Positions 47,710-63,226 of a DNA stretch of 64,000 bases are shown one piece after another; the first letter of the stretch is position 1; every line of letters begins with the position of its first letter. Both the position numbers and the translations under genes were made by a program. This DNA is from Marinobacter adhaerens HP15. GTDB lineage: Bacteria > Pseudomonadota > Gammaproteobacteria > Pseudomonadales > Oleiphilaceae. The notes under the pieces were generated by a model that was given only the letters and a program-made list of their open reading frames with translations, ran no database searches and had not been told where the DNA came from. The stretch spans positions 3,782,001 to 3,846,000 of the forward strand of contig NC_017506.1 in NCBI RefSeq assembly GCF_000166295.1, read 5' to 3'.

Positions 47710-47873
47710 GGGGCTATTGTACGATGAAATTCCGGCCTGTCTTTCAGGCACCGGGAGAAACATTATTTGGCGGGATTGACCGGTTTTATGTGAATTATGA
47801 CCGTCTGATTTTTCGCCGGCTTGTGCCACACTGCCAGAACCAATAACGACAATATCCGGACCGAGTGTTTGCC

Positions 47874-50078: not shown

Positions 50079-50984
50079 TTATGGGCTTTCTTTCCACACA
50101 CAAGGCTGACTGCCGGCAGAACCAACAAAGGGCGTTTGATTCGATTCATAGTGCCAGGGAAGGCCTTTCTCGTACGTTTTCAGGCGACACTCCAGCCAAC
50201 TTTTCCAGACCAGGAACTTGGGATAATCCTTACTATCCTCAATCAACCTGTCTATCGCGTTCTTCTGAGTTTCGACAGCTTCATCAAACTGACCATTTTC
50301 TGCGAGAACGGCCGCCAACGTATCCAGTGTTGTTGCCTGCTTTGATTCCTCATCGTCCTCCATGACTTCCTGAATCAACTCCAGCGCTCGAGCACCATCA
50401 CGAAACTCTGCATCCGGGTGGACCGCCAAAAACCAGGAATAATGATGCGCTGAATAGACTTCGCTATCGTAATCGACTGATCGTTCGAACAGCGCCTTGG
50501 ATATGCCGATATTCTTATCGACACCTTTTCCGAAAGCGTAAGATTTGGCCAGTAAACCAAGAGCAGGCGAATACTCGGAGTAACGATCTCCCCTTAAAAT
50601 ATCCGTTCCTTCTTCATCATTGCCGGGATCATCGTCGTAAAGCAGAATTTTAGCGTTTGCCAACGGCATAAAGTAATCGAGGTACTGATCCCAACGACCG
50701 TGCTCCAGGCTTTGCGATAGCTGGTAATACTCCTTTGCTTTCTCGATATCGCGCGGGATCTGGTAATCGGACAAAAAAAGGAAGCTGGCCATGACCGCAG
50801 AGGACTTACTACCGTCCTCGTTTGCTGCCGTTTCAAAATATGGCAGAGCTTCCTCGTATTTATTGTCGTCTACAAGATCAAAGCCTTTTCCACTTTGAGT
50901 GATTGAACACCCCGCGAGCTGCAACAAACACAGCAAAACGATCCCTCGACACCTGACGCTCACCACCCGAACTCCATCAACCAT
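50079..50984 (-). CDS. Lipoprotein with Sel1/TPR-like repeats
   Basis: 301 residues, lipobox LAGC (Cys at about 26). The mature part has alpha-helical repeats of the Sel1/TPR type (LVDDNKYEEALPYFETAANE, AKSYAFGKGVDKNIGISKALFERS). Composition is AT-richer than the chromosome to the left, and the gene lies directly beyond the last attC-bearing cassettes, so it may be an old cassette whose attC has decayed. No attC was found after its stop. Function unknown. Confidence 0.8.
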   Translation of the reverse strand: MVDGVRVVSVRCRGIVLLCLLQLAGCSITQSGKGFDLVDDNKYEEALPYFETAANEDGSKSSAVMASFLFLSDYQIPRDIEKAKEYYQLSQSLEHGRWDQYLDYFMPLANAKILLYDDDPGNDEEGTDILRGDRYSEYSPALGLLAKSYAFGKGVDKNIGISKALFERSVDYDSEVYSAHHYSWFLAVHPDAEFRDGARALELIQEVMEDDEESKQATTLDTLAAVLAENGQFDEAVETQKNAIDRLIEDSKDYPKFLVWKSWLECRLKTYEKGLPWHYESNQTPFVGSAGSQPCVWKESP

Positions 50985-51082: not shown

Positions 51083-51421
51083 TCAGCTATCGGAAAACGA
51101 GACTGGCTGAGCCAAAACAGGCTGCAAGTAATCGTCACTGACTTCCAATTCATAGACAGTTTTCGATTGAACCAAACAGTCGAGCATGTGTTTGCGTGCT
51201 CTATGATATTTTTCATCGATCACGTGACGATCTTTTTCCCACGTTTCCCGATCAGGCCACTGAGCATAACCAACCAGGATATTCGGCTTGTCTGAGGTAT
51301 GGAGTCTTGAACCAAAACTGCCACAGTGCTCATAGATAGCTTTCGTCACTTCAAGCCAGGCTTCACGAAATGAAGTCTCTGTGCCTTCCTTGATTTCAAA
51401 CTCGTAAACGGCAACAAACAT
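51083..51421 (-). CDS. Antibiotic biosynthesis monooxygenase (ABM) domain protein
   Basis: 112 residues with the ferredoxin-like ABM fold (MFVAVYEFEIKEGTETSFREAWLEVTKAIYEHCGSFGSRLH, ILVGYAQWPDRETWEKD). ABM proteins are found as quinol-oxidising enzymes or as stress-related enzymes of unknown substrate. It is the last cassette-like gene of the array: attC1 lies upstream of its start, but no attC follows its stop. Confidence 0.82.
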   Translation of the reverse strand: MFVAVYEFEIKEGTETSFREAWLEVTKAIYEHCGSFGSRLHTSDKPNILVGYAQWPDRETWEKDRHVIDEKYHRARKHMLDCLVQSKTVYELEVSDDYLQPVLAQPVSFSDS

Positions 51422-51436
51422 TCGTTTCCCCTCTGA

Positions 51437-51512
51437 GCTCTAGCGCTGAGCGCACCGGCGCACTAGCGCACCGGCGCACTTTAGTGCGTCCGAGTGGCGC
51501 GTTTTGTTAGGC
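51437..51512. other. attC1
   Basis: Core GTTAGGC (51506-51512) and a degenerate GCTAGAGC (minus, 51444-51437) bracket a palindrome. A 16-base piece, GCGCACCGGCGCACTA, is duplicated in tandem (51450-51465, 51466-51481). Strongly like attC9. Confidence 0.7.
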
Positions 51513-51522
51513 TCCAAGTGAT

Positions 51523-52347
51523 TCATTTCGAGTATTCTGCTAGAAACTCCTTTGCTTTTCTTAGTGATTCCTTGATGTAAAACTTTGAGCCCGGCTTGAT
51601 ATTTTTCTCTTCAATAAAATCAACGTAAAACTTTAACCGATCATACGCTTTATCGAACTGACCTAGTGCGCGATACTGTTCACCGGCCCTCAGATATGCC
51701 AAACACTGCTTGGGATTCAGTTCGATCGATTTTTCCCACGAGGAAAGAGCTAAATCAAGGTATCCCATGGCTTGATACCTATTCCCTATATTTAGAAAAC
51801 ATAAAGAAGGGTTGGGGTCATTATTTTCTATGGCTTTCAAATACGCAGCAATTGCTTCTGCGTGTTTTCCAGATGCACCGAGCCGAACGCCCAAGTCAAA
51901 ATTTAGCTCTTCTTCTTGTTCTTTTATCTCAGCATTTAATTCGCCCAATTTCTTAGCGAAAATATCGCTAATGTTTTTCTTTACACCATCATCCAGACTC
52001 TTAGACAAATCGTGAAATTCTTTTTCTATTTCATTTTTAGTTACCTCAACCTTTTCCTCGATTGCTTGGAAAGCGGAACGCGTTAGATATTTACCTTGAA
52101 TTGAAGTCAAAAAGTTTTCTTCATCTTTGAAGTCACTAGGTGCATATAGAACCTTAGGATTAAAATTAAGAGTTAAAAAGAAGATCATCACGATGATTAG
52201 TGGGAACAGCATCACGAACCAGATAAAAATCTTCTGTAAATCCGGGGAGATAAGCCCGACCGTAATTGTTCCAGCAATTTCCGCTAGCGCTGAAAATATG
52301 GCAATTATCGTCAGTGGATTCGAAACGGTTCTTATTCTTTCGATCAT
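51523..52347 (-). CDS. Integron cassette: 2TM-coiled coil-TPR protein
   Basis: 274 residues. Two N-terminal hydrophobic segments (about 10-35 and 40-62) around PDLQKIFIWFVMLFPL, then KVLYAPSDFKDEENF, a coiled coil (about 100-145) and TPR-like helices (about 150-250, AEAIAAYLKAIENNDPN). The membrane plus repeat architecture suggests a sensing or scaffold role; no enzymatic motif is seen. Its cassette ends with attC1. Confidence 0.78.
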   Translation of the reverse strand: MIERIRTVSNPLTIIAIFSALAEIAGTITVGLISPDLQKIFIWFVMLFPLIIVMIFFLTLNFNPKVLYAPSDFKDEENFLTSIQGKYLTRSAFQAIEEKVEVTKNEIEKEFHDLSKSLDDGVKKNISDIFAKKLGELNAEIKEQEEELNFDLGVRLGASGKHAEAIAAYLKAIENNDPNPSLCFLNIGNRYQAMGYLDLALSSWEKSIELNPKQCLAYLRAGEQYRALGQFDKAYDRLKFYVDFIEEKNIKPGSKFYIKESLRKAKEFLAEYSK

Positions 52348-52363
52348 TTCATATTTCTCGATA

Positions 52364-52438
52364 GCCTAACGCCGAGCAGAGCGGCGGCTGAAAGCCGTCC
52401 GGCGGCCAACGGCCGCGTACTGATGCGACTGGTTATGA
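52364..52438. other. attC2
   Basis: GCCTAAC (52364-52370) and GTTATGA (52432-52438) flank a palindrome with GGCGGC repeats. The upper core overlaps the stop of the DUF1272 gene. Confidence 0.85.
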
Positions 52439-52681
52439 ATTGGCACTGCATCCACCGGCCTTTACCACACGTTGCGTTGGCGCCGGATATTTGCCAAGCA
52501 GTGATTCTGGGCGAATGGGACGGGGCGAAAAATTGCCACCACAGTTGGGGCACTGATTACCCAGCACATCAGATGCGCAAGATTCGCAGAACGTGCACTC
52601 GAATGTGCAGATTACCGCCTCACTGGAGTCCGGCGGCAAATCCTTGTCACAACACTCGCAATTGGGTCTCAATTCGAGCAT
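52433..52681 (-). CDS. Integron cassette: DUF1272 zinc-binding protein
   Basis: 82 residues starting MLELRPNCECCDKDLPPD. Three Cys pairs (CECC, CTFCESC, CPNC) make zinc binding likely; sequence matches DUF1272. The stop codon lies inside attC2's core box. Function unknown; the small zinc-ribbon form is common in proteobacteria. Confidence 0.88.
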   Translation of the reverse strand: MLELRPNCECCDKDLPPDSSEAVICTFECTFCESCASDVLGNQCPNCGGNFSPRPIRPESLLGKYPAPTQRVVKAGGCSANS

Positions 52682-52699
52682 AGAATCCTCCGTGCTGAT

Positions 52700-52771
52700 T
52701 CATAACGCCGATGGTAATGGGCGGCTACGGAGCGCAGCGCAGTAGACGTACCGTTGACCATATTGTTATGG
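52700..52771. other. attC3
   Basis: TCATAAC (52700-52706) and GTTATGG (52765-52771) with an imperfect palindrome between. Confidence 0.82.
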
Positions 52772-53527
52772 CTTCTTCTGCACATAGTATCGATTTGCGC
52801 ACTCACTGAACTCGAAGCTAACCAATTTTGTTTCCATCACAGTACAGGTAACGACTTCGGCAGCATCTAGTTGAAAAAGAATAAAGTTGTGTCCGCCGCC
52901 CATGCTACTTTTAAAACAAACACCGTCGTATCCTTGCGACTTAAAAAACTCGGCTAATATCTGTGTTGGCACGTAATCTGACGCATCATCAGCGTTAGTT
53001 ACTGGTTTGGTAAATGCCTCGTTGATCATTGACCAGACGGCGTTGCCAATATCTTCTTGGGATACTGGTGGGTTAAAAATACATTCAACGTGGGAATAGT
53101 GATGGGGAACTGAGTAGCAATCGACGAGCCTCAGGTTCTTTTGTATTTCGAACTGAGCAGATGACAGACGTTGGCCTAAATGTGGACGAAGTTCCGCGAG
53201 CGCAGTATTCTCATCATTCGACAGATATAAATACGAAATCCCCTTCGGATTGCCACGTCCCTCCTTTCCCTTATTTGGAATAGGTTTCATGCGTTGGGCT
53301 GCATATCCTGTTATTTCCGGCCCTCCCTCCAGCTCATGCTCGTCATGGCCGATCTGAGCTCGATAAAGGATGCTTTCTTTAGCCAAGGATCGTTCGCGCG
53401 GAGGCAAGGTACGCTTTATATTAGCTAGAAACTCCGATACCAAGGGCGAATGGACGAAACGGTTTTCTAGCTTGACCTCTCTTTCAAAGTCTTGAAAATC
53501 CCGCCATGAATTAAATCCCAAACCCAC
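52766..53527 (-). CDS. Integron cassette: RES-domain protein
   Basis: 253 residues. The RES residues are present: Arg56 in ILYRAQIG, Glu112 in ALAELRP, Ser207/208 in FKSSMGGGHNFILF. RES proteins are ADP-ribosyltransferase-like NAD-consuming toxins, normally paired with an Xre-type antitoxin. Here the cassette holds no antitoxin gene, and the N-terminal extension (about 50 residues) is not usual, so it may not be a standard toxin, or it may be tamed or regulated in another way. Confidence 0.85.
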   Translation of the reverse strand: MGLGFNSWRDFQDFEREVKLENRFVHSPLVSEFLANIKRTLPPRERSLAKESILYRAQIGHDEHELEGGPEITGYAAQRMKPIPNKGKEGRGNPKGISYLYLSNDENTALAELRPHLGQRLSSAQFEIQKNLRLVDCYSVPHHYSHVECIFNPPVSQEDIGNAVWSMINEAFTKPVTNADDASDYVPTQILAEFFKSQGYDGVCFKSSMGGGHNFILFQLDAAEVVTCTVMETKLVSFEFSECANRYYVQKKP

Positions 53528-53545
53528 AACCTCCTGAATTGGTGC

Positions 53546-53625
53546 CCATAACTACGAGCGCAGCGGCAAAAAGCCGTCCAGTGGAGGGCCATAGGCCCGG
53601 AACTGACTTAATGGCCTTGTTATTG
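53546..53625. other. attC4
   Basis: CCATAAC (53546-53552) and GTTATTG (53619-53625). Its right-hand 45 or so bases are shared with attC8 (AGGGCC...GGCCC...GACTTAATGGCCTTGTTAT). Confidence 0.82.
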
Positions 53626-53643
53626 GGCAGAAAAACTCCTGAG

Positions 53644-53847
53644 TCACGGCTTGGTGTAGCCATACTTGCCCGGGTCCTCAAAAATGGTTGCCACTGTCGC
53701 CGTTGCCTCTTCCCTCGAAAGCTCTACACGTTGCAATAGAGCAATCGCTTCTTCTTGATCGCGAGACAAAATGGCCGCATCAAACTCATCCATGATCCGG
53801 GCATCAAAGAGACGTTCATTGATGGTCATTCCAGCCAGTTTGCTCAT
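53644..53847 (-). CDS. Integron cassette: small hypothetical protein
   Basis: 67 residues (MSKLAGMTINERLFDARIMDEFD), acidic and largely helical, with a VELSREEATATVATIFEDP middle. No domain recognised; I have seen similar short cytoplasmic proteins in other arrays but no function is assigned. Its size and charge would fit an antitoxin, but there is no toxin beside it in the cassette. Confidence 0.7.
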   Translation of the reverse strand: MSKLAGMTINERLFDARIMDEFDAAILSRDQEEAIALLQRVELSREEATATVATIFEDPGKYGYTKP

Positions 53848-53860
53848 AATCGTCTAGAGA

Positions 53861-53950
53861 CCCTAACGCTGAGGTAACCGGCACCGGAGCGCCAGCGGAG
53901 GGAACCAAAAGCGGTACGCTTTTAGCGTCCGGTTGACCATATGGTTATGG
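53861..53950. other. attC5
   Basis: CCCTAAC (53861-53867) and GTTATGG (53944-53950). Nearly identical in its middle 60 bases to attC10. Confidence 0.87.
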
Positions 53951-53984
53951 CTCAACCAGCCAAGCTCCGCCGGAAAACACAGCT

Positions 53985-54119
53985 TTAGTGGCAATGATAA
54001 GGCTGTGAACCTGCGTGACAGCATTGCCCAGGTGGGCTGTCTTTCCGGCAACCGCCACCATGAGCGAACGCCGTCGAGGCGAACACAACAAGAAACAAAC
54101 TTAGCATTATTTTTTTCAT
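53985..54119 (-). CDS. Integron cassette: 44-residue exported Cys/His-rich peptide
   Basis: Read from the sequence: an ATG at 54119 with GGAG upstream opens a 44-codon frame ending TAA at 53985. It has a classic signal peptide (MKKIMLSLFLVVFASTAFA, cleaved after AFA) and a short mature part, HGGGCRKDSPPGQCC and PYHCH. Four Cys and several His suggest metal or disulfide binding; it resembles the YHYH/YHCH small-protein family. It fills the otherwise empty cassette between attC5 and attC6. The overlapping longer minus-strand frame 53863-54195 runs through the attC and is not the gene. Confidence 0.72.
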   Translation of the reverse strand: MKKIMLSLFLVVFASTAFAHGGGCRKDSPPGQCCHAGSQPYHCH

Positions 54120-54228
54120 GGTCATTCTCCGGGATTGAGGTGCTAGCGCATTGTGCAACCTCCATGTTCATTGCTCTCCAACTATCTTGGCACAACCCAG
54201 AAAATGTAGACGAAATGTACGTAAAGCG

Positions 54229-54330
54229 CCAAAACGCCAGCGCACAACGGCGCCCTTGGAATGAAGGCGCAGCCGCAATGTAAAGGGCGTCCGGTGGCCA
54301 CCGGCCGGGAACTGCTGCGCTTTGTTAGCG
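54229..54330. other. attC6
   Basis: CCAAAAC (54229-54235, degenerate) and GTTAGCG (54324-54330) bracket a longer palindrome than in the other sites, about 100 bases. Confidence 0.78.
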
Positions 54331-55059
54331 ATTGCCTGGTAGTTGCAACGTGCTCAACCACGCAATCAAGTGATCATAATCTCGTAAGGTAAGAATATGT
54401 TTTGTTTCGTCGGCAACTGCCTGAGCATCCTTCGTGAAAAAAGATGTGGTTACTACAACCCCTTTATTGGCTCTTGCTTGAGTCACCGTTCCCAGCAGAC
54501 GTTGCACCACCCCGATTCCAACGGATCTGTCGGGTGCATATCTCTTACATTCAATTAGATGCACGCTTCGACCAACAAAATTGGATTCCTCTACCGCGAC
54601 AATATCGACGCCGCCGTCTCTACTCTGTGGAGTTAACTCCACAGAAAAACCATTGTTTCGAAATATCGAGGCAACGAGCTCTTCAAATTTACGAGGAGGC
54701 AAAGAATAGAGCTGCTCAGGATGTCGACGGAAATAAGCAAGCATCTCCGCCTCTACATCCGGACACCAGAGTGAGAGGCAATCGGTGACTATCTTTGGTT
54801 CTTCCAAATACCGGAAGTCTTCCAGAAGCTTCTCTGCATCCCCACCCGCTAACTGATCGACGACGGCTTCTAGTTCATCCTCGTTTAGGCTATCCGTTTT
54901 AAAAACGGCAATCAGCTCTCTTTCAGTTAACTCCTGCCCAGTGTGCAATTTTTCCGCTGCGGATCGCGCCAGTTTTCTGTGGGCTTTCATGTCTTCAGGG
55001 ACGGGAGGGCCTTTTCTGCGTCTCTTTTTTCGCCTTGTGTTTGGCTCTAAATCCGCCAC
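54325..55059 (-). CDS. Integron cassette: Mrr-type restriction endonuclease-like protein
   Basis: 244 residues. The C-terminal half has the PD-(D/E)XK fold: Glu127 in KFEELVASIF, Asp152 in GGVDIVAVEE, E170-C-K172 in IECKRYAPD and Gln186 in VVQRLLGTV. This matches the restriction-endonuclease-like family of Mrr/topoisomerase-associated type. The basic N-terminus (KKRRRKG) suits DNA binding. Likely a nuclease against modified or foreign DNA; stop codon lies inside attC6. Confidence 0.88.
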   Translation of the reverse strand: MADLEPNTRRKKRRRKGPPVPEDMKAHRKLARSAAEKLHTGQELTERELIAVFKTDSLNEDELEAVVDQLAGGDAEKLLEDFRYLEEPKIVTDCLSLWCPDVEAEMLAYFRRHPEQLYSLPPRKFEELVASIFRNNGFSVELTPQSRDGGVDIVAVEESNFVGRSVHLIECKRYAPDRSVGIGVVQRLLGTVTQARANKGVVVTTSFFTKDAQAVADETKHILTLRDYDHLIAWLSTLQLPGNR

Positions 55060-55078
55060 ATCAGAACTACCTTCTAAA

Positions 55079-55158
55079 CGCTAACGCCAAAAGCACGCGC
55101 GGCTTCGGAATGGAGGCGAAGCCGCAATGTAGTATCCGTCGCCGCACCTGTGATTATT
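55079..55158. other. attC7
   Basis: CGCTAAC (55079-55085); the upper core box GATTATT (55152-55158) is degenerate. Palindrome with AAGCCGC/GCGGCTT arms. Confidence 0.75.
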
Positions 55159-55561
55159 AAGATTGTTGAGGATATCGCGCTCTCAAGAAGTCGACAGTTT
55201 TTCTTAGTAGCGGACCGACGTGAACAATATCATCGTAATTATCTTCAGCGAACTCTTCGTCAAGATAGTTATGGGATGTGGTATTCCTACTATCTAGCAT
55301 GTCTAACCATTCGTCTTCGTCATCAAGCCATCCAATCTTAAACGCTTCCTTTACACTTTCACGCGGGGTTTTCGGGTAAACACCCTCAAACTCTAATGCG
55401 CGCTTCAAAGTCTTCCACATTAGCTCTATGACATACTCGAACCGTTGAATTGTGCCCTCAACCACTAATTCTCTATTGCGAGGTATCTGTAGTGCCGACT
55501 CCAATTTGGCCATGGCTTTTTCGAGATTTCCCAAGCTATCCTGCAACTTACGATCGCTCAT
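55157..55561 (-). CDS. Integron cassette: HEPN-like nucleotidyltransferase substrate-binding protein
   Basis: 134 residues of the HI0074-type family (NTase_sub_bind), with RFEYVIELMWKTLKRALEFEGV and RNTTSHNYLDEEF. The stop is followed by attC7. Its start overlaps the nucleotidyltransferase gene by 14 bases, so the two form a single two-gene cassette. This pairing is known to form a complex; some systems are type VII toxin-antitoxin pairs (HEPN/MNT). Here the key HEPN RNase motif (RX4-6H) appears as RNTTSH, one residue shorter than usual spacing in part, so RNase activity is plausible but not certain. Confidence 0.85.
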   Translation of the reverse strand: MSDRKLQDSLGNLEKAMAKLESALQIPRNRELVVEGTIQRFEYVIELMWKTLKRALEFEGVYPKTPRESVKEAFKIGWLDDEDEWLDMLDSRNTTSHNYLDEEFAEDNYDDIVHVGPLLRKTVDFLRARYPQQS

Positions 55562-55841
55562 ATATGACTACTCCTTGAGAGACTATTCGTTCTTGTAGTG
55601 CAGGAGGGTTTGATTCGAAATGAACCAACGAAACCCAGTAAAGCGTCCGGGATTCTGCTGCATCTAGCCGTAATCTTGAAAATTTTTTTCTGCACAATTC
55701 CGGTGCAAATACTGCAATATCAAAATCAGAGCGAGAATCAAAATCACCCACAGCCCTAGAGCCAAAAAGCATCAGCTTCTCAATTGGATAAAGATCAACC
55801 AATTCATCAATAACCGATTGAACGGATAAAGGTTCTCTCAT
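55548..55841 (-). CDS. Integron cassette: MNT-type nucleotidyltransferase
   Basis: 97 residues with GSRAVGDFDSRSDFDI (about 27-42), the classic GSxx(11)DxD nucleotidyltransferase motif. In HEPN/MNT systems this antitoxin adds AMP to the HEPN toxin. Overlaps the HEPN-like gene by 14 bases. Confidence 0.9.
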   Translation of the reverse strand: MREPLSVQSVIDELVDLYPIEKLMLFGSRAVGDFDSRSDFDIAVFAPELCRKKFSRLRLDAAESRTLYWVSLVHFESNPPALQERIVSQGVVIYERS

Positions 55842-55848
55842 CGTAAAA

Positions 55849-55935
55849 CCTTAACGCCAGCCATAAGCGGCGCCCTGAAAAGGGCGTCCGGTGGAGGGCC
55901 AGAGGCCCGTAACAGACTTAATGGCCTTGTTATAA
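55849..55935. other. attC8
   Basis: CCTTAAC (55849-55855) and GTTATAA (55929-55935); right half like attC4. Confidence 0.84.
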
Positions 55936-55939
55936 GTGA

Positions 55940-56230
55940 TCAATTTAGCTCGTACTGGACGAAACTGTTCCAGTCACCGATAGCGTCCTGGGCAGCCTGT
56001 TGATGAGCCGCGGCAGCTTCTTGTTGCTCTTCGACGAAACGATTGATGCAAGAGCGATAGTCTTCGACCTCGGAATTGAATTGATCAACCTCCCATTGAG
56101 AGGTGAACTCATAAGGTTTGCTCGGCTCATAGCATGAGTGGCTTGGGGCAAACATATCTGCAAGAACTGGAAGCGCGATTGCAGCACCAACAATTCCGAT
56201 ACCGAATTTCATACTTCTAAGCTGCATCAT
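55940..56230 (-). CDS. Integron cassette: small exported hypothetical protein
   Basis: 96 residues; a second Met (MKFGIGIVGAAIALPVLA) gives an N-terminus with a signal peptide, so the protein is probably periplasmic, starting near DMFAPSHSC. Two Cys (SCYEPSK and RSCINR) could form a disulfide; then a helical Glu/Gln/Ala-rich tail. No known domain. Function unknown. Confidence 0.72.
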   Translation of the reverse strand: MMQLRSMKFGIGIVGAAIALPVLADMFAPSHSCYEPSKPYEFTSQWEVDQFNSEVEDYRSCINRFVEEQQEAAAAHQQAAQDAIGDWNSFVQYELN

Positions 56231-56242
56231 TTCTCCATTTCG

Positions 56243-56301
56243 TTATAACGCGGAGCGCACCGGCGCACTTAAGTGCGTCCGAGTGACGCGATTTGTTATA
56301 C
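56243..56301. other. attC9
   Basis: TTATAAC (56243-56249) and GTTATAC (56295-56301). The shortest site (about 59 bases), close relative of attC1 without its internal duplication. Confidence 0.85.
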
Positions 56302-56901
56302 CTTTTCCCAGCGCAATCCCACGTTCGTATATCGAGCCTGGTACTGGTGCTTGAATTCAGATACTAACGGGCTTGCTACCAATGAATGAGCGGCATTTGG
56401 ATTATGGAGCACCACTAATTCTTTGGTCGCCGCGAATGCTACCGCAATTGCACTGATATATTTCTTTCGATTGGTAAATAAGCCGGGGTGACGGCGTACT
56501 TCTACAACTTGGCCATCTTTCCGCTCCATGAACTCCGCAACCCCCATCATCGCAGACTGAATATTCTGGATGAGCAGCAAATCTTTTACGACGAAGTCTC
56601 TATTGTCGCAGAGCACAACTACACACGGCTTGCCAGTAGCGCCATGTCCTTTGAATTGAACAGATGCACTCTTCACTCGATCTTCTATTCTGTCAGAGTT
56701 GATACTGTATATTTCGTGATGTCCTTCCAGAACCTCTTTTTCGTACGGATTTTCGACAAACTCTTTTACTTCCCAATAACTGGTCAGGCTTCCCACCCAA
56801 ACCTCAAAGTCAGGTACAGGGTCACCCAACTCAGGCAGTTTTCGGTGTCCGATACCAAGGTCAGTAAGGATTTCGTCTACTAGGATTTCCGACTCGTTCA
56901 T
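56296..56901 (-). CDS. Integron cassette: possible PD-(D/E)XK-type hypothetical protein
   Basis: 201 residues from ATG 56901 (MNESEILVDEILTDLGIG); a longer frame to 56961 would run through attC10. PDFEV (Pro30-Asp31) followed by WEVKEF (Glu44-Val-Lys46) has the D...ExK spacing of PD-(D/E)XK nucleases and related proteins. The rest (KPCVVVLCDNRDFVVKDL, NRKKYISAIAVAFAATKEL) suits an alpha/beta fold. The assignment is a guess from two motifs. It would be the second nuclease-like cassette here. Confidence 0.55.
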   Translation of the reverse strand: MNESEILVDEILTDLGIGHRKLPELGDPVPDFEVWVGSLTSYWEVKEFVENPYEKEVLEGHHEIYSINSDRIEDRVKSASVQFKGHGATGKPCVVVLCDNRDFVVKDLLLIQNIQSAMMGVAEFMERKDGQVVEVRRHPGLFTNRKKYISAIAVAFAATKELVVLHNPNAAHSLVASPLVSEFKHQYQARYTNVGLRWEKV

Positions 56902-56913
56902 AGGTTCACGTAG

Positions 56914-57003
56914 GTATAACGCATAGGTAACCGACGCCGGAGCGCCAGCGGAGGGAACCAAAAGCGGTACGCTTTTGGCGCCCGGTTGACCGACTGGTTA
57001 TGG
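56914..57003. other. attC10
   Basis: GTATAAC (56914-56920) and GTTATGG (56997-57003). Nearly identical to attC5, with GCGCCAGCGGAGGGAACC shared exactly. Confidence 0.87.
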
Positions 57004-57363
57004 CTGCTCATTCCGCCTCACGATACCGATGACCAACTTGCCACAACCTAGCGCCAACAAAAGCATCGATAGAATCTGCACTACGCTAATGGCTATAAAG
57101 TACCACTGGTATTTGTCTTGGGCTTCTTTTTTGGCTGAAGAGAACTTTTTCAGGAAGTCATCATTTTTCATAAGATTCGAAAGCTGCTCTTTCGACATGA
57201 ATTCCCAGGTTTCGAGGTTCCAAGGCTCTTGACCAAGCACGCTCACGCGAATCTCTTTCTCCATCCTTTCCTGAAGAACGCTTCGACCTGTTTCCAATAC
57301 AGATTCGACCAAGTTCACGAGTAAGAAAAAGGCGAATATGGTAATACAAACTTTAAGCTTCAC
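56998..57363 (-). CDS. Integron cassette: two-helix membrane protein, hypothetical
   Basis: 121 residues. Two hydrophobic helices (about 5-25 and 88-112, ISVVQILSMLLLALGCG) flank a soluble loop (WNLETWEFMSKEQLSNLMKNDDFL). Topology suggests both ends in the cytoplasm or periplasm together. No domain recognised. Its stop lies inside the upper core of attC10. Confidence 0.65.
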   Translation of the reverse strand: MKLKVCITIFAFFLLVNLVESVLETGRSVLQERMEKEIRVSVLGQEPWNLETWEFMSKEQLSNLMKNDDFLKKFSSAKKEAQDKYQWYFIAISVVQILSMLLLALGCGKLVIGIVRRNEQP

Positions 57364-57378
57364 TCGACTTCCCTGTGG

Positions 57379-57456
57379 CCATAACGCTATGCGAAGCGGC
57401 CGGTTTGGAGGCGCAACCGCGCCGGAAAACCGGTCCGCTTGCGCTATTGGTTAGGC
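57379..57456. other. attC11
   Basis: CCATAAC (57379-57385) and GTTAGGC (57450-57456); CCGGTTT/AAACCGG palindrome arms similar to attC12. Confidence 0.87.
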
Positions 57457-58094
57457 AATCTGGCCAGAATATTCTTGACCCAGAATGCCTCTATGATGCC
57501 CGCATTGGTCCCAAAATTTCTTATATCATCTAAAGTTTCTGGGTGTATCGGGTTCTCAGTTAAATAACCACTTATAGTGCCAATGACTCGGGGTATACCC
57601 GAATCCATGTATATCACTGGGCCTCCGGAAAAACCTTTGTTGTTATGCCCATCCAGAAACAATGTAGTCAATCCGTGTTTTTCAAAGTCAATGCAGGAAA
57701 TAAGCGCTGCTTTGACGAATGGAAAAGGGAACCTATTATTTAACTCGCCCGATGGTGAGGCCATGCCAAAAGGGAAACCTAGAAAATAGACCCATTGACC
57801 CAACGTTGCTCCCGCAGGCCCAATTAAGATCTCATGACGTGGAGATAGGTCAGACTCCAGCCTAAACACAATCGTGTCGGCATGCTCTCGTTCATTGAAC
57901 ACTGTATGGACTGGAACATCCCGCCAAGCCTTGTTCTGGAATACCTTAACCGAGGGAATTTCGAGCGAGCCTTCGAATACGTGAGCCGCCGAAATCAAAA
58001 ATTGATTTCGGCCTTTCTCAACGGTGTAACCTGAAGCAGTTTTTCCTTCGTGAAAAATTCGAAAAACCCGCTGAATGATATTCGTCGTTATCAT
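57444..58094 (-). CDS. Integron cassette: trypsin-like serine peptidase
   Basis: 216 residues from ATG 58094 (MITTNIIQRV); a longer frame to 58112 begins inside attC12. Chymotrypsin-fold triad: His38 in SAAHVF, Asp73 in HADTIVF, Ser156 in NKGFSGGPV. No signal peptide is evident, so unlike most trypsin-like proteins it may act in the cytoplasm, where related proteases guard against phages or process partners. No partner gene in the cassette. Confidence 0.85.
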   Translation of the reverse strand: MITTNIIQRVFRIFHEGKTASGYTVEKGRNQFLISAAHVFEGSLEIPSVKVFQNKAWRDVPVHTVFNEREHADTIVFRLESDLSPRHEILIGPAGATLGQWVYFLGFPFGMASPSGELNNRFPFPFVKAALISCIDFEKHGLTTLFLDGHNNKGFSGGPVIYMDSGIPRVIGTISGYLTENPIHPETLDDIRNFGTNAGIIEAFWVKNILARLPNQ

Positions 58095-58100
58095 CCCTTT

Positions 58101-58176
58101 GCCTAACGCCATGCGCAGCGGCCGGTTTGTGGAGCGCAGCGGAACAAACCGGTCCGGCTGACGCTACTGGTTAGAA
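58101..58176. other. attC12
   Basis: GCCTAAC (58101-58107) and GTTAGAA (58170-58176), with long arms GCGCAGCGGCCGGTTT-like, close to attC11. Confidence 0.87.
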
Positions 58177-58664
58177 GTTCTTGGCCGCCTATCTGCGGTT
58201 TTTCTCTGAATCCATGACAAAAGACAGCACGCCGAGATGGCGGCCAGCGCAAACCCATATGCTGCAGCGGTAATTAGCAGTCCATCCATCGAATATTCCG
58301 CACCAAGCAAAATCAATGGGACTAAAATCAAAGCTCCGGCAATAACTCTGTATACACTTAGCAAGCTAAACCCAACTTGTTCAGAGATATCATGAGCGTT
58401 TCGAAAGAAGGAATTTATAGTCTCATTAGGCTTGAACCACCAATAATCCACGGCTGAGAGCAAAAGATGCCCTACAAATAAGGCTGCCCAGTACCAAATT
58501 AAAAAATCTGCTGCCTTCAAAGATTTGAAAAAAGCGATCAAACCGCCATCACCAGGGAAATAGCATACGAGTACGCTTGGGACACCTCCCAATATTAATG
58601 CGCAAATGGTCTCCCTGAACGCATAATCTTTAATTTCCAACTTCCTGATTGTCTTTCTCCCCAA
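58164..58664 (-). CDS. Integron cassette: membrane protein, hypothetical
   Basis: 166 residues from a TTG at 58664, which has no strong ribosome site; the true start may be slightly downstream. Four hydrophobic helices (about 20-40, 58-75, 108-128, 132-155). DYWWFKPNETINSFFRNAHDISEQVG connects helices two and three. No family recognised. It is the first cassette at the right-hand edge of the array and stops inside attC12. Confidence 0.65.
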   Translation of the reverse strand: MGRKTIRKLEIKDYAFRETICALILGGVPSVLVCYFPGDGGLIAFFKSLKAADFLIWYWAALFVGHLLLSAVDYWWFKPNETINSFFRNAHDISEQVGFSLLSVYRVIAGALILVPLILLGAEYSMDGLLITAAAYGFALAAISACCLLSWIQRKTADRRPRTSNQ

Positions 58665-58679
58665 CTTCTAACAGCTAAT

Positions 58680-58699
58680 TATACGAACGCGTTCGTATA
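58680..58699. repeat. Perfect 20-bp palindrome
   Basis: TATACGAACG and its reverse complement, with no spacer. Immediately beside the array's leading edge. Confidence 0.8.
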
Positions 58700-58913
58700 T
58701 CACCCGCTCGTAAAACTCCAATAAAAAATGCTCAAGACAAAACGATTTTATTAGATAAAACAATCATTTGAGCACCAACCACCACGGCTACCGCCGGAGT
58801 TATACGCCCACCCATTAGCGGCCCCGCTTCCAAACCGGGGCGTATATCTCCGCCCGGCCATTGTGACTTATTCAACCCTAGCAGATAGTTACCTTCATTT
58901 CGCACCGGGAATC

Positions 58914-58947
58914 CCGGAGTTATGCGAACGTGTTCGTATAACTCCGG
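58914..58947. repeat. Hairpin repeat after nrdB
   Basis: Arms of 16 bases (CCGGAGTTATGCGAAC) pair with one mismatch across a 2-base centre. It is 15 bases beyond the nrdB stop; with no T tract it is not a typical terminator. Confidence 0.7.
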
Positions 58948-58961
58948 CTGTTCAGGCGGGT

Positions 58962-60020
58962 TTACCACTCCAGCTGAGCCCCGGTCTGGTACTCAATCAC
59001 CCGGGTTTCAAAGAAGTTCTTTTCCTTGCGCAGTGTGGCCTGTTCATCCAACCAGGGCGAGACGTTCTTTGCTCCGGGGAACGGCTCTTCAAGACCTACC
59101 GTCCTGGCACGGCGGTTGGCCACAAAGCGGAACTGTTCGCTGTGGTACTCGGCCGAATAACCGAGAATCGGGTCTCGCAGGATGTAGTCCGCATAGGCCT
59201 TCTCGGCGGCTTCGGATTCGTCCCACATCTCACGCACGGCCTTCGGATCGAAGGTGATGTTCTCCTCTTCCACGATCTGGTTGACCACTTTCAGGCCGAA
59301 TGAGAAGTGCATGGCCTCATCCCGCAGGATGTACTGAAGCTGTTCGCCCGTGCCTCGCATCAGTCCTCGACGCTGCAGGGCGAAGATAGGGCTGAAGCCG
59401 TTGTAGAACCAGGTGCCTTCGAACACCGCCGCGAAGAACAGGTAAGACATGATGAATTCCTGCAGGTCATCCTTGTTGCGCAGGTTCATGTCTGGCCGCA
59501 TGGCCGCATCCAGCCGGCGGTTGGCGATCTGGATCTTGCCGTTGATGGCAGGCACCACGCGGTAACGGTTGTAGATCTCGCTCTGGTCCAGGTTGAGGGT
59601 TTCGATGCAGTGCTGGTAGGCCCAGGTATGCATGGCTTCCTCGTATACCTGCCGGGCCTGGTAGATCTGCAGCTCCGGCGCGCTCATCTTCTCCATCACC
59701 GCCAGGCCGATGTTGCGCATGGCCAGGATGTCGGAAGTGGTGAGGTAGGCCAACACGTTCTCGTATACATGTTTTTCCGGCGCAGTCAGCCGGTGGTGGT
59801 AGTCGTGAACGTCCTGGGCCATGTTCACGTCCAGGGGGGTCCAGTGGTTTTTGTTGGCGTTCATGAAGTACTCCCAGGCCCAGGGGTACTTGAACGGTGC
59901 CAGCTGGTTGATGTCGGTTTCGCCGTTGATGACGCGTTTATCGTCCACGTTCACCGGTGCCGGGGCGCCGGGATGCGCCGCCCTGGATTCAGTTTTTGGT
60001 TCGTCGTCCCAATCAAGCAT
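58962..60020 (-). CDS. nrdB: Class Ia ribonucleoside-diphosphate reductase subunit beta
   Basis: 352 residues. The ferritin-like iron ligands can be seen: Glu in YEEAMHTWAYQH (EAMH pair), EGTWFYNGF and EAMHFSFGLKV (second Glu/His set). Provides the tyrosyl radical for NrdA. Follows nrdA by 30 bases in the same operon. E. coli NrdB is 376 residues; this one fits the Pseudomonas-type proteins. Confidence 0.96.
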   Translation of the reverse strand: MLDWDDEPKTESRAAHPGAPAPVNVDDKRVINGETDINQLAPFKYPWAWEYFMNANKNHWTPLDVNMAQDVHDYHHRLTAPEKHVYENVLAYLTTSDILAMRNIGLAVMEKMSAPELQIYQARQVYEEAMHTWAYQHCIETLNLDQSEIYNRYRVVPAINGKIQIANRRLDAAMRPDMNLRNKDDLQEFIMSYLFFAAVFEGTWFYNGFSPIFALQRRGLMRGTGEQLQYILRDEAMHFSFGLKVVNQIVEEENITFDPKAVREMWDESEAAEKAYADYILRDPILGYSAEYHSEQFRFVANRRARTVGLEEPFPGAKNVSPWLDEQATLRKEKNFFETRVIEYQTGAQLEW

Positions 60021-60050: not shown

Positions 60051-62816
60051 TTACTGACAGGCTTCGCAGTCCGGATCGTCGATGCTGCACACCTGGGGTT
60101 GGGGCGCGGCAACCGGTGCGGTTTTTTCAGCGCCGGTAGCTCCCAGGGAGCGCAGGTAATAGGTGGTTTTCAGCCCACGTTCCCAGGCCAGCTGGTAAAG
60201 GGCATCCAGCTTTTTGCCGCTGGGCTCGGCCATGTACAGGTTCAGGCTCTGGGCCTGGTCGAGCCATTTCTGGCGCCGGGCCGCGGCCTCCACCAGCCAT
60301 CTTGCGTCGATCTCAAAGGCGGTGGCGTATCGCGCTTTCAGTTCATTCGGGATGCGGTCGATCTGCTGAACGCTGCCGTCGAAGTATTTGAGGTCGTTCA
60401 CCATCACGTTGTCCCACAGTCCTTCGGCCTTGAGGTCTCGGACCAGCGACGGATTGACCACCGTGAACTCGCCGGAGAGGTTCGATTTCACGAAGAGGTT
60501 CTGGTACGCCGGCTCGATGGACTGGGACACACCCACGATGTTGGAAATCGTGGCAGTCGGGGCGATCGCCATCACGTTGCTGTTGCGCATGCCGTTTGTT
60601 GCGATCAGTTCGCGTACGGGAGACCAGTCCAGCCGGGCGTTGGTGTTCACAGACAGGTCCCCTTCCCGGCGGTTCTCTTTGAGCAGGTTGATGGAGTCGA
60701 TCGGCAGGATGCCCTGCTGCCAGAGAGAACCCTCGTAGCTTTCATAGGCGCCCCGCTCACCCGCCAGCGTGGCGGAAGCACGGATGGCGAAGTAACTGAG
60801 CTGCTCCATGGCAACGTCAGCAAACTCAACCGCTTCCGGGCTGGAATACGGCAGGCCCAGTTGATAGAGCGCGTCCTGGAAGCCCATGATGCCGAGGCCA
60901 ACCGGGCGATGCTTGAGGTTGGAATTGCGGGCCTGGGGCACGGCGTAGTAGTTGATGTCGATAACGTTATCGAGCATGCGCACGGCGGTGTTTACCGTCT
61001 GTTCCAGGCGCTGCACGTCCAGCTCGCCGTTGGCAATATGGGCCGTCAGGTTCACGGAACCGAGGTTGCATACGGCGATCTCGTCGGCACTGGTGTTCAG
61101 GGTGATTTCCGTGCACAGGTTAGAGCTGTGCACCACGCCCCGGTGCTGCTGGGGAGAACGCAGGTTGCACGGGTCCTTGAAGGTGATCCAGGGGTGGCCG
61201 GTTTCGAACAGCACGGTGAGCATCTTGCGCCAGAGCTGCTTGGCCGGGATTTTCTTGAACAGCTTGATTTTGCCCTGCTCTGCCAGGGCTTCGTAATGCT
61301 CGTAGCGTTCACGGAAGGCGTTGCCGTACAGGTCGTGCAGATCCGGCGCATCGCTGGGAGAGAACAGGGTCCAGTCACGGTCTTCGCGCATGCGCTCGAT
61401 CAGCAGATCGGGCACCCAGTTGGCTGTATTCATGTCGTGGGTTCGGCGGCGTTCGTCGCCGGTATTCTTGCGCAGCTCCAGGAACTCCTCGATGTCCAGG
61501 TGCCAGCTTTCCAGGTAGGCACACACTGCGCCTTTACGCTTGCCGCCCTGGTTAACCGCCACGGCGGTGTCGTTGACTACTTTCAAGAAAGGCACCACGC
61601 CCTGGCTCTGGCCGTTGGTTCCCTTGATGTGGGATCCCAGCGCACGAACTGGCGTCCAGTCGTTACCCAGACCGCCTGCCCATTTCGACAGCATGGCGTT
61701 ATCCCGGATGGCCCCGTAGATGTCTTCAAGATCGTCGCCCACCGTCGTCAGGTAACAGGACGACAGCTGAGAATGGCGGGTACCGCTGTTGAACAACGTG
61801 GGTGTGGACGCCATGTAGTCGAACGACGACAACAGGTTGTAGAACTCGATGGCCCGGGCATTCGGGTCGTCTTCGCGCAGGGCCAGGCCCATGGCAACGC
61901 GCATGAAAAATACCTGGGGCAATTCCAGGCGGGCCTTGTTCCAGTGCAGGAAGTAACGGTCGTACAGGGTTTGCAGACCCAGGAAGCCAAACTGCAGATC
62001 CCGCTCCGGCTGAAGGGCCGCACCCAGGCGCTCCAGATCAAAGGCGGCCAGAGCTTCATCCAGCAATTCGTACCGGATTCCAGCCTCGACAAAGGCGCTC
62101 AGTGCCTGTGGATAAATCTCAGCCAGTGGCAGACTGATAGGCAGGCCAAGGGCAGCGGCATTCTCCAGGCGAAGTTGCTCCAGGAGCAGGCGCGCAGTGA
62201 CCGCGCTGTAGTCCGGCTCCCGCTCAATCCGGCTGCGGGCCGTCATGATCAAGGCCGACAGCACGTCTTCCTCGGCGATGCCGTCGTACAGGTTGGTCAG
62301 GGCATCGTCCACCAGGGAATCACCGTCAATGCCCTCCAGCCCTGTGGCGGCCTGTTCCACCTGCAGTTTCATCAGGCCCAGATCCAGCGGAGCAATCTCG
62401 CCACTGGTCTTTTTCACCGTCAGATGGGGGTGCGCCTCAACCGGCGCATGGCGGGCGCGCTCGCGGGCATGCTCTTCCCGATACAGGACGTAGGCGCGGG
62501 CCACCTTCTGTTCTTCGGCCCGCATCAGGGCCAGTTCCACCTGATCCTGGATGTCTTCGATATGCACCTTGCCACCGGCCTTCAGGCGACGGCCAATCGC
62601 CTGGATAACCTGGTCGGTCACCCGGTGTACCGCGTCATTGATACGCGCGGAACCGGCGGCGGTGTCGCCCTCAACTGCGAGGAAGGCTTTGGTTACGGCG
62701 ATGCTGATCTTCGAGGGGTCGAAGCCCACAAGCGTGCCGTTGCGCTTGATGACCTGAAGGGATTCGGTGTCCGTGTGCGAGGTTGGCCGGGGTTCGGCCA
62801 GGGCTGAGGCAGACAT
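60051..62816 (-). CDS. nrdA: Class Ia ribonucleoside-diphosphate reductase subunit alpha, with two ATP-cones
   Basis: 921 residues, much longer than E. coli NrdA (761). The excess is N-terminal: a first ATP-cone at about 20-110 (QVIKRNGTLVGFDPSKI) and a second, more divergent one at about 130-225 (HLTVKKTSGEIAPLDLGLM). Catalytic parts include AVCNLGSVNL, CTEI, GLGIMGFQDALY, PTATISNIVGVSQSIEP and a Cys-rich C-terminus (DDPDCEACQ). Reduces NDPs to dNDPs. A cobalamin riboswitch lies in its leader. Confidence 0.96.
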   Translation of the reverse strand: MSASALAEPRPTSHTDTESLQVIKRNGTLVGFDPSKISIAVTKAFLAVEGDTAAGSARINDAVHRVTDQVIQAIGRRLKAGGKVHIEDIQDQVELALMRAEEQKVARAYVLYREEHARERARHAPVEAHPHLTVKKTSGEIAPLDLGLMKLQVEQAATGLEGIDGDSLVDDALTNLYDGIAEEDVLSALIMTARSRIEREPDYSAVTARLLLEQLRLENAAALGLPISLPLAEIYPQALSAFVEAGIRYELLDEALAAFDLERLGAALQPERDLQFGFLGLQTLYDRYFLHWNKARLELPQVFFMRVAMGLALREDDPNARAIEFYNLLSSFDYMASTPTLFNSGTRHSQLSSCYLTTVGDDLEDIYGAIRDNAMLSKWAGGLGNDWTPVRALGSHIKGTNGQSQGVVPFLKVVNDTAVAVNQGGKRKGAVCAYLESWHLDIEEFLELRKNTGDERRRTHDMNTANWVPDLLIERMREDRDWTLFSPSDAPDLHDLYGNAFRERYEHYEALAEQGKIKLFKKIPAKQLWRKMLTVLFETGHPWITFKDPCNLRSPQQHRGVVHSSNLCTEITLNTSADEIAVCNLGSVNLTAHIANGELDVQRLEQTVNTAVRMLDNVIDINYYAVPQARNSNLKHRPVGLGIMGFQDALYQLGLPYSSPEAVEFADVAMEQLSYFAIRASATLAGERGAYESYEGSLWQQGILPIDSINLLKENRREGDLSVNTNARLDWSPVRELIATNGMRNSNVMAIAPTATISNIVGVSQSIEPAYQNLFVKSNLSGEFTVVNPSLVRDLKAEGLWDNVMVNDLKYFDGSVQQIDRIPNELKARYATAFEIDARWLVEAAARRQKWLDQAQSLNLYMAEPSGKKLDALYQLAWERGLKTTYYLRSLGATGAEKTAPVAAPQPQVCSIDDPDCEACQ

Positions 62817-62954
62817 GCAGTGTTCTCCTGAATACGCGTTGAGTTCCTTTCACCATCGCGTACGCAGGGGCACACCTCGCCATGGGAATGGCTGGGCATA
62901 ACCGGTCTGCTCACCCTGGGTCGCGAAGGTGCAGTTGGGAGCCGTAAGGCTCCT

Positions 62955-63115
62955 TCATCCCTGGCAGGTCTTCGGACTCAGGGGCGTGAATCGATAGATT
63001 CGGCCTCGTGTGGCGACTTCCCGGCTTTCGCCAGTGTCTTGATGCCACGCTTGTTCCCCAATACCGCTGCGCGTCAGTTCCGGAGTCTCACCGGATTCCC
63101 GATACCAGAATGGCT
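62955..63115 (-). ncRNA. Cobalamin riboswitch upstream of nrdAB
   Basis: On the minus strand the leader has GGGAATCCGGTGAGACTCCGG with AACTGACGCGCAGCGGT (about 63100-63064), matching the conserved cobalamin riboswitch core, and ends with the B12 box AGTCCGAAGACCTGCC (62978-62963). About 150 bases follow to the nrdA ATG, including a hairpin GGAGCCTTACGGCTCC (62957-62942). Likely turns off nrdAB when cobalamin is plentiful. Confidence 0.87.
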
Positions 63116-63226
63116 GAGATGATCACACGTTGACCGAGTTGGTTACGCACTGATCACTACATCTGGTATTTGACCAAGGATAGAAACACTATATACACGA
63201 TATTCGGAAGGGACAACCTGAAGCAA

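Follow-up and report, generated by a model that had tools for sequence, protein, structure and literature searches.

The 64,000-nucleotide stretch of the Marinobacter adhaerens HP15 genome (4,651,725 bases, 3 contigs) analysed here, hereafter the window, carries at positions 51437-58672 an array of 12 integron cassettes holding 13 open reading frames (ORFs), all on the minus strand, with all attC sites in minus-strand orientation. The array is real: it is a true attC cluster headed by its own attI site, and not a bare cluster of attC sites lacking integron-integrases (CALIN). We consider it probable that the array is a satellite integron, that is, an attI dock without an integrase gene (intI) that would have been loaded in trans by one integrase (IntI) and then stranded after deletion of intI. 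An attI module at nrdB without its own integrase gene would carry the twelve cassettes, each inserted there by an IntI encoded elsewhere on the chromosome, the enzyme most likely being the type-A IntI of an imuB-like locus. That intI would then have been deleted in this lineage, and because of the deletion the nrdB array and the genome's other arrays would now be stranded unless an outside IntI arrives. A promoter within the module would drive the first cassettes. We infer both the action of IntI in trans and the imuB enzyme as the one at work here from sequence comparisons across the genus.

Identification of the attC sites employed a covariance model, R1, trained on alignment A2, which comprises 35 attC sites taken from other genomes, and used in place of IntegronFinder's own model; since its training sites were collected by similarity to the window's sites, the test is cross-genome and not blind. 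With filters off in the 64 kb window, R1 scores 12 of 12 sites (E 2.5e-16 to 0.007; span 51438-58176), exactly those claimed in an earlier sequence-only reading of this DNA, and the next match has E=9.6. That reading would have been undone by attC models failing on its sites, which did not occur. A larger search under default filters recovers 11 of the 12 at E<=0.05 (53546-53626 is missed), and a genome-wide search in which 150 of 2623 candidates were scored lists nine. A conserved R-box core and paired L boxes with extrahelical bases, the marks of an attC, are present in the relatives' sites of alignment A2; two of the twelve window sites are degenerate (53546, 21.1 bits; 55079, 23.3 bits). 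The structure, drawn by hand on A2, fits 95.7% of its cells. Of the 18 pairs, 12 show two-sided changes (mean after shuffling 9.7), and covariation scores 0.514 versus 0.125; further pair types (28 vs 25.9) are not above chance. The sites, all on the minus strand, are:

58101..58176, minus strand: attC of cassette 1, 52.1 bits, E 3.3e-11
57379..57456, minus strand: attC of cassette 2, 51.0 bits
56914..57003, minus strand: attC of cassette 3, 40.8 bits
56243..56301, minus strand: attC of cassette 4, 57.1 bits
55849..55936, minus strand: attC of cassette 5, 71.2 bits
55079..55162, minus strand: attC of cassette 6, degenerate, 23.3 bits, E 0.0019
54229..54330, minus strand: attC of cassette 7, 56.6 bits
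53861..53950, minus strand: attC of cassette 8, 38.7 bits
53546..53626, minus strand: attC of cassette 9, degenerate, L boxes mismatched by eye, 21.1 bits, E 0.007
52700..52771, minus strand: attC of cassette 10, 37.9 bits
52364..52438, minus strand: attC of cassette 11, 65.8 bits
51438..51512, minus strand: attC of cassette 12 at the array end, one R' substitution, 44.7 bits

Chance inverted repeats or another repeat family could in principle pass for such sites, and loose pattern and fold scans were indeed unspecific, with many random window matches; they were replaced by the covariance model. Against this explanation, R1 places all twelve sites on a single strand, one per cassette, with nothing else below E=9.6, and the training alignment covaries. 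We give the idea almost no credence.

Immediately upstream of the first cassette lies the head of the array:

58668..58947, minus strand: attI module, ~280 bp, crossover G|TT at 58672/58671, three palindromes, ending 14 bp from nrdB

A profile hidden Markov model (HMM) of the module, searched with nhmmer, scores 259.7 bits in the window (model positions 2-280). Window positions 58669-58946 match the spacer between intI and the first cassette at 76-77% identity in genomes G029 and G034 and 74-75% in G002 and G008 (G and L numbers denote the genomes and fetched loci compared). In the aligned heads, conservation starts at the same base, G|TT, in all intI-bearing relatives, and their first cassettes differ. 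In intI-bearing loci the module runs on into a LexA-like box and the start of intI; in the window it runs after 14 bp into the end of nrdB, and no integrase gene, LexA-like box or intI-promoter flank lies beside it. Judged by this homology, the window module is an attI related to that of IntI-bearing Marinobacter integrons. The sequence-only reading had set the right end of the array at 58672, exactly on the crossover, without recognising the attI itself. The module palindromes include GGAGTT..GCGAACGCGTTCG..AACTCC (window 58668-58947), and deletions within modules seem to join palindromic repeats, as in L248 of G009 and perhaps L297 of G096. Assignment of the distal palindrome to nrdB was rejected: by eye, an intact or decayed form is present in only 6 of 32 nrdB ends listed.

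The attI head also bears on the possibility of off-target insertion by an IntI at a non-attI site (attG), which would produce a CALIN without a platform. Insertion at attG is a published route (Loot et al. 2024, as cited in PMC12444791), but the window array starts at an attI module whose homologues head intI-bearing integrons and whose crossover falls on the same base as theirs, and we regard this origin as very improbable.

No IntI over cut-off is encoded anywhere in the genome, as the sequence-only reading had supposed for the array. TIGR02249 gives 11 matches, all below cut-off, the best reaching 82.8 of 265 bits. Thirteen tyrosine recombinases match PF00589, 11 of them on the chromosome; the one nearest any attC cluster lies 8 kb away (C1:4401252, 28 bits to TIGR02249), and for the other four clusters the nearest on the chromosome is >120 kb off. 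A 105-aa ORF resembling an IntI N-terminus (C1:3666135-3666452; L016 8136-8453), 116 kb before the window, was rejected as an intI remnant. It encodes a stand-alone SAM-like PF13495 protein with similar short frames in other Marinobacter genomes, and the genome-wide list (150/2623 candidates scored) places no attC nearby.

The search for intI and attI proposed with that reading yields three attI modules, one of them cut short: the window module; C1:975670-975948, which heads 17 attC sites; and C1:1405295-1405537, which breaks off at model position 259 and heads three. For two further attC clusters (4 and 3 sites), the fetched stretch contains no module. The genome thus holds at least 39 attC sites in five clusters (12+17+3+4+3), 27 of them outside the window at E<=0.05, a lower bound because only 150 of 2623 candidates were scored genome-wide and three of the 12 window sites escaped that search. 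The picture of a bare CALIN therefore overlooked the attI head and four more clusters, and was right about the absent integrase. The second integrase-less, attI-headed array (L212 5948-15889, 17 attC) has an orthologous place in G009, G096, G130 and G131, where the arrays are largely different. Locus L215 of the window genome has attC and no module, and is syntenic with the second ribonucleotide reductase locus of L246 and L255. Plasmid records searched with the attI module gave no match; 25 plasmid records matched the array, and among the 20 matches listed at most 3% of the query was covered.

A lost intI has left a scar at C1:1.405 Mb (L213), where the flank holds an impB/mucB-family gene (PF00817), here called imuB-like, and is 97%, 93% and 96% identical to the corresponding flank in G009, G023 and G130. 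An intact IntI stands at this locus in G023, G029, G002 and G130. In the window genome the last ~12 intI codons are kept, followed by the truncated module, with ~1.0 kb missing relative to G130, and the scar joins the intI tail close to the distal palindrome of the module. The sister species G009 (L248) has the same intI scar with more of the module lost; because both genomes carry it, the imuB-like intI deletion probably predates their split. The attI-proximal cassettes at the locus differ between the two.

The arrangement at nrdB recurs across the genus. Matches to the module occur at E<=1e-10 in 67 of 124 Marinobacter genomes, counting the window genome, and at E<=0.001 in 25 of the 58 that make up the first set of relatives. 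Among fetched loci, 27 full-length modules have no adjacent intI and 14 have an intact one, a count that covers the fetched loci, excludes other IntI types with different attI and many listed modules, and leans toward the type of this genome, by match to whose module the loci were chosen. Sixteen loci were left out of it: those with a broken intI beside the module (L251, L265, L308, L309), the scarred L213, L254 at a contig edge, and those with partial, split, divergent or weak modules (L087, L097, L103, L107, L110, L248, L253, L259, L261, L297).

All 27 intI-less modules end at model position 277-280. A ~75-bp intI-promoter flank is present at 14/14 intI-bearing and 0/27 intI-less loci, and a CTGT-N8-ACAG box at 12/14 and 0/27, respectively; the last position of the HMM was set by this genome's own homology break, and the common edge thus rests also on the flank test. 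At least one attC follows 24 of the 27 modules (E<=0.05 or E<=0.01 depending on the search; L263 only at E=0.049), an inserted element sitting between module and attC in L096 and L256; of the remaining three, L098 and L246 are cut short by the end of the contig, and in L311 no attC follows within 2.9 kb. The distal flanks fall into 11 groups, which include nrdB, a second ribonucleotide reductase gene (PF02867; L246, L255) and the locus of L212, L247, L298, L299 and L307; this number joins the L212-type, L256-type and L313 flanks, which were partly separate in an earlier grouping and may share only a gene family. Docks at so many loci could reflect either repeated intI loss from full integrons or dispersal of the module, and the shared edge, as read from sequence, is compatible with dispersal as well as with deletions that stop at the distal palindrome. 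In an empty-site comparison at two satellite loci, the surroundings are variable on both sides.

The intI-less docks appear to have been used, since orthologous ones carry different arrays. In six sets of orthologous intI-less modules (L256/L257/L263; L260/L264; L258/L098; L090/L091; L246/L255; L212/L298/L299/L307), the nucleotide sequences cease to be homologous at the crossover, give or take a few bases: the array-side 120 bp are 35-53% identical in 10/10 pairs compared, the modules 64-99%. At nrdB, the intI-less junction is common to the window genome, G016 and G028, and partial in G032 and G096. These arrays have 12, 11 and 5 attC sites in the window genome, G016 and G028, and those of G016 and G028 have no cassette in common with the window array; G096 carries module parts 95-98% identical to the window's and one attC. 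Fixed gene content and order, which would speak against an active array, is therefore not what is seen between species, the level at which same-site arrays were compared.

These comparisons weigh on the principal alternative, that a complete integron once stood at nrdB, that its intI and promoter were deleted locally, and that the local intI had laid down the content. G008 and G034 carry an intact intI plus attI 0.4 and 1.0 kb from nrdB, respectively, so that an ancient intI at this locus is possible, a point against a satellite origin. Deletions of intI do occur, as scars in L213 and L248 and broken copies in L251 and L265 attest, and intI loss is frequent in Xanthomonas (PMC12444791). Yet G016 and G028 have the same intI-less junction, and G032 and G096 have part of it, with no cassette shared with the window array; because the junction is common and the cassettes are not, the content appears to have changed after a shared ancestor was already intI-less. 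Merely 14 bp separate module and nrdB, and action in trans would be needed anyway. We therefore hold local deletion to be unlikely, with perhaps a minor share of the probability, and continue to favour a satellite integron.

Hints of action in trans come from genomes that retain one enzyme. In each of the single-contig genomes G130, G095, G080 and G103, a single intact IntI lies next to one module, and one or more modules >300 kb away are intI-less. The IntI-linked array of G130 contains a 430-bp cassette that two satellite copies match at 100% identity across 429 bp, and a third copy is 99.8% identical; the modules are 91.0% identical. The same first cassette stands at both modules of G095 (430/430 bp; modules 93.2%), G080 has 824/826 bp common to both arrays (modules 91-93%, depending on the ends chosen), and in the draft genome G034 the first cassettes at both modules are identical over 101 bp to the contig end (modules 87.1%). 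The simplest account of these sequences would be that one IntI loaded both docks in G130, G095, G080 and G034. The sequence-only reading had asked whether the array is a relic or is recombined from elsewhere; as far as sequence speaks, probably both, since no IntI over cut-off is left here, the array starts at an attI module, and in four relatives a cassette at an intI-less module is identical or nearly identical to one in the IntI-linked array.

The 430-bp cassette occurs at attI in several species, with up to three copies in one fetched array. It contains a CTGT-N8-ACAG (LexA-like) box, a 25-bp hairpin identified by eye and one putative open frame of ~100 codons. Weaker copies are present in L274 and L271; the others are:

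L299 7920-8775 and 9611-10040: 430-bp cassette copies
L300 7948-8376: 430-bp cassette copy
L301 9435-9867: 430-bp cassette copy
L302 9390-9822: 430-bp cassette copy
L116 2706-3136 and 4507-5364: 430-bp cassette copies

Several observations pull the other way. In G103, with its one IntI and satellite, the stretches fetched show arrays sharing only attC-sized pieces and the module, and G032 likewise has nothing common beyond these. Homologous exchange between arrays could also give shared cassettes. The intI-less module of G089 (L311) seems by eye to keep ~18 bp of intI-side flank, which the flank model did not score, and this seems to favour intI loss over module dispersal at that locus. A consensus scan found no cassette promoter in the module. 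G009 has kept another IntI type (L123), 46% identical, which makes the last-acting enzyme in the lineage uncertain. Finally, all support is drawn from sequence.

The array can be placed against systems already described. By the definition in IntegronFinder 2.0, a CALIN has at least two attC sites and no intI near (PMC9024848). With 12 clustered sites and no integron integrase nearby, nor any over cut-off genome-wide, the window array would be called one, and the label given by the sequence-only reading is sound in that sense; unlike the CALINs described there, it is headed by a full attI module. It likewise has the attI at the array head and the single-orientation attC array of a sedentary chromosomal integron, and lacks the intact intI. 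A review of integron natural history gives off-target insertion, intI loss and rearrangement as the origins of CALINs (PMC8618304), and an attI dock served from elsewhere is a further route beside those three. The closest precedent for an intI-less attI array is the Shewanella prophage M16-3, in which a CALIN and a complete integron have the same attI (PMC9892861). That, however, is a single case, in a cryptic prophage and with a 28-bp attI, whereas the Marinobacter modules are chromosomal, span many species and loci, and come with evidence of cassette sharing.

In Xanthomonas, a sedentary integron resides at ilvD and CALINs at seven other conserved loci (PMC12444791). The two genera are alike in a genus-wide ancestral platform, frequent intI loss and extra intI-less arrays at fixed places; the available text does not mention attI at the extra Xanthomonas loci. 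The delta-attI cassettes of class 1 and 2 integrons, whose attI pieces mostly measure 14-18 bp with one complete 65-bp site, also place attI outside its usual position (PMC12901181). Those pieces replace attC at cassette ends, in contrast to the ~280-bp Marinobacter module, which heads arrays at separate chromosomal loci. Retention of attC without intI is known from Treponema phagedenis (PMC3607928). Our literature search, which left subscription literature largely outside its scope, found no report of a genus-wide intI-less attI pattern, nor any paper joining Marinobacter adhaerens HP15 and 'integron'.

Given that the 27 intI-less copies have both edges in common across at least 11 flank groups, the ~280-bp dock may spread as a discrete unit. 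We offer, quite tentatively and as a possibility we would not bet on, that the Marinobacter integron as a whole is distributed, one SOS-controlled IntI serving several attI docks, and that CALINs of other genera may be docks as well, overlooked because searches do not look for attI. If many CALINs are attI docks loaded in trans, a single integrase would operate several arrays, every one of them with a first-cassette position of its own, and losing that gene would freeze all of them at once. The series from intact intI through pseudogene and scar to absence would provide a natural system for studying cassette fate after integrase loss.

The thirteen or so minus-strand genes of the sequence-only reading correspond to the 13 ORFs in 12 cassettes, and its domain names (RES, HEPN/MNT, Mrr, trypsin-like, TPR) prove mostly right by family scans. 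Catalytic motifs were read by eye.

58164..58664, minus strand: cassette 1, 166-aa protein, membrane-like by eye, no family (ORF and family scan)
57444..58112, minus strand: cassette 2, trypsin-like serine protease (PF13365), AAH, HAD and GFSGGP motifs by eye
56998..57363, minus strand: cassette 3, 121-aa protein, membrane-like by eye, only a sub-threshold ETRAMP match
56296..56901, minus strand: cassette 4, 201-aa candidate PD-(D/E)XK nuclease, PD-x12-E-x-K invariant
55940..56230, minus strand: cassette 5, 96-aa protein, no family (ORF and family scan)
55548..55841, minus strand: cassette 6 gene a, MNT nucleotidyltransferase (MntA-like antitoxin), PF18765 56.1 bits, GS-x10-DxD by eye
55157..55561, minus strand: cassette 6 gene b, HEPN-type partner (HI0074 family), PF08780 98.1 bits, R-x4-H by eye
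54325..55059, minus strand: cassette 7, 244-aa Mrr-type nuclease domain protein, PF04471 100.9 bits, PADLOC domain matches only
53985..54119, minus strand: cassette 8, 44-aa protein, signal-peptide-like start by eye (ORF)
53644..53847, minus strand: cassette 9, 67-aa protein, no family (ORF and family scan)
52766..53527, minus strand: cassette 10, 253-aa RES-domain protein, PF08808 63.3 bits, no partner gene in the cassette
52433..52681, minus strand: cassette 11, DUF1272 protein, PF06906 98.9 bits
51523..52347, minus strand: cassette 12, TPR-repeat protein (PF07719), membrane-like N-terminus by eye

PADLOC finds no complete known defence system, with domain-level matches in 3 of the 10 proteins scanned (those of cassettes 3, 5 and 8 were left out); among these, the cassette 2 protein weakly matches LmuA and reverse transcriptase (RT)-protease domains. 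Compared with MntA-HepT (type VII) toxin-antitoxin pairs, gene b of cassette 6 exceeds the TIGR01987 cut-off and overlaps gene a by 14 bp, and gene a scores 49.8 bits against NF047752 (cut-off 60). The cassette 4 protein has seven homologues, two of them named, from Marinobacter. A PD-(D/E)XK nuclease, as had been guessed, is plausible for it because P30, D31, E44 and K46 do not vary between the window protein and 6 aligned homologues and because its AlphaFold model has a mean predicted local distance difference test (pLDDT) score of 81.3. The RES, MNT/HEPN, Mrr and protease cassettes may act in defence or as toxins.

Part of this content belongs to a pool shared across the genus, since cassettes 8, 9 and 11 have relatives in other Marinobacter arrays. 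Cassette 8 DNA aligns over 372 bp with the first cassette of intI-bearing G035 at 95.7% identity (86% for the nrd DNA of G035); it is 94.9% identical to a cassette in a satellite of G067, and a 257-bp piece is 85% identical in G135. Cassettes 9 (83%) and 11 (85%) have nucleotide relatives in other arrays, that of cassette 9 in the IntI-linked array of G095, and an 89% identical protein to that of cassette 11 is encoded at the far end of the genome's second attI array. The other window cassettes have no nucleotide match >=150 bp in the fetched loci.

Two genes flank the array and belong to no cassette, and in two species the attI crossover itself is the site of a further element, which encodes a tyrosine recombinase of 298 aa together with an IS91-like transposase (PF04986, PF14319; scan restricted to L096):

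51083..51421, minus strand: ABM-domain flank gene, 94% identical with near relative G096 (window 51124-51446)
58962..60020, minus strand: flank gene nrdB, ribonucleotide reductase beta subunit, with a match in 52 of the 58 genomes searched
L096 2374-5050 and L256 7621-10293: recombinase/IS91-like element at the attI crossover

By NrdB, the nearest named relative is Marinobacter flavimaris LMG 23834 (99%). A second variable spot lies beside the array, where a TPR/Sel1-type gene (50079-50984) stands between the array flank and the gene at 47865-49976, with no match at that place in near relatives G009 and G096. In single-contig G103, a 436-aa tyrosine recombinase is present in nine or more copies of equal score. 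Finally, a cobalamin riboswitch (window 62946-63124, minus strand, 80.6 bits) lies directly upstream of the minus-strand gene 60051-62816, which is presumably nrdA-like.

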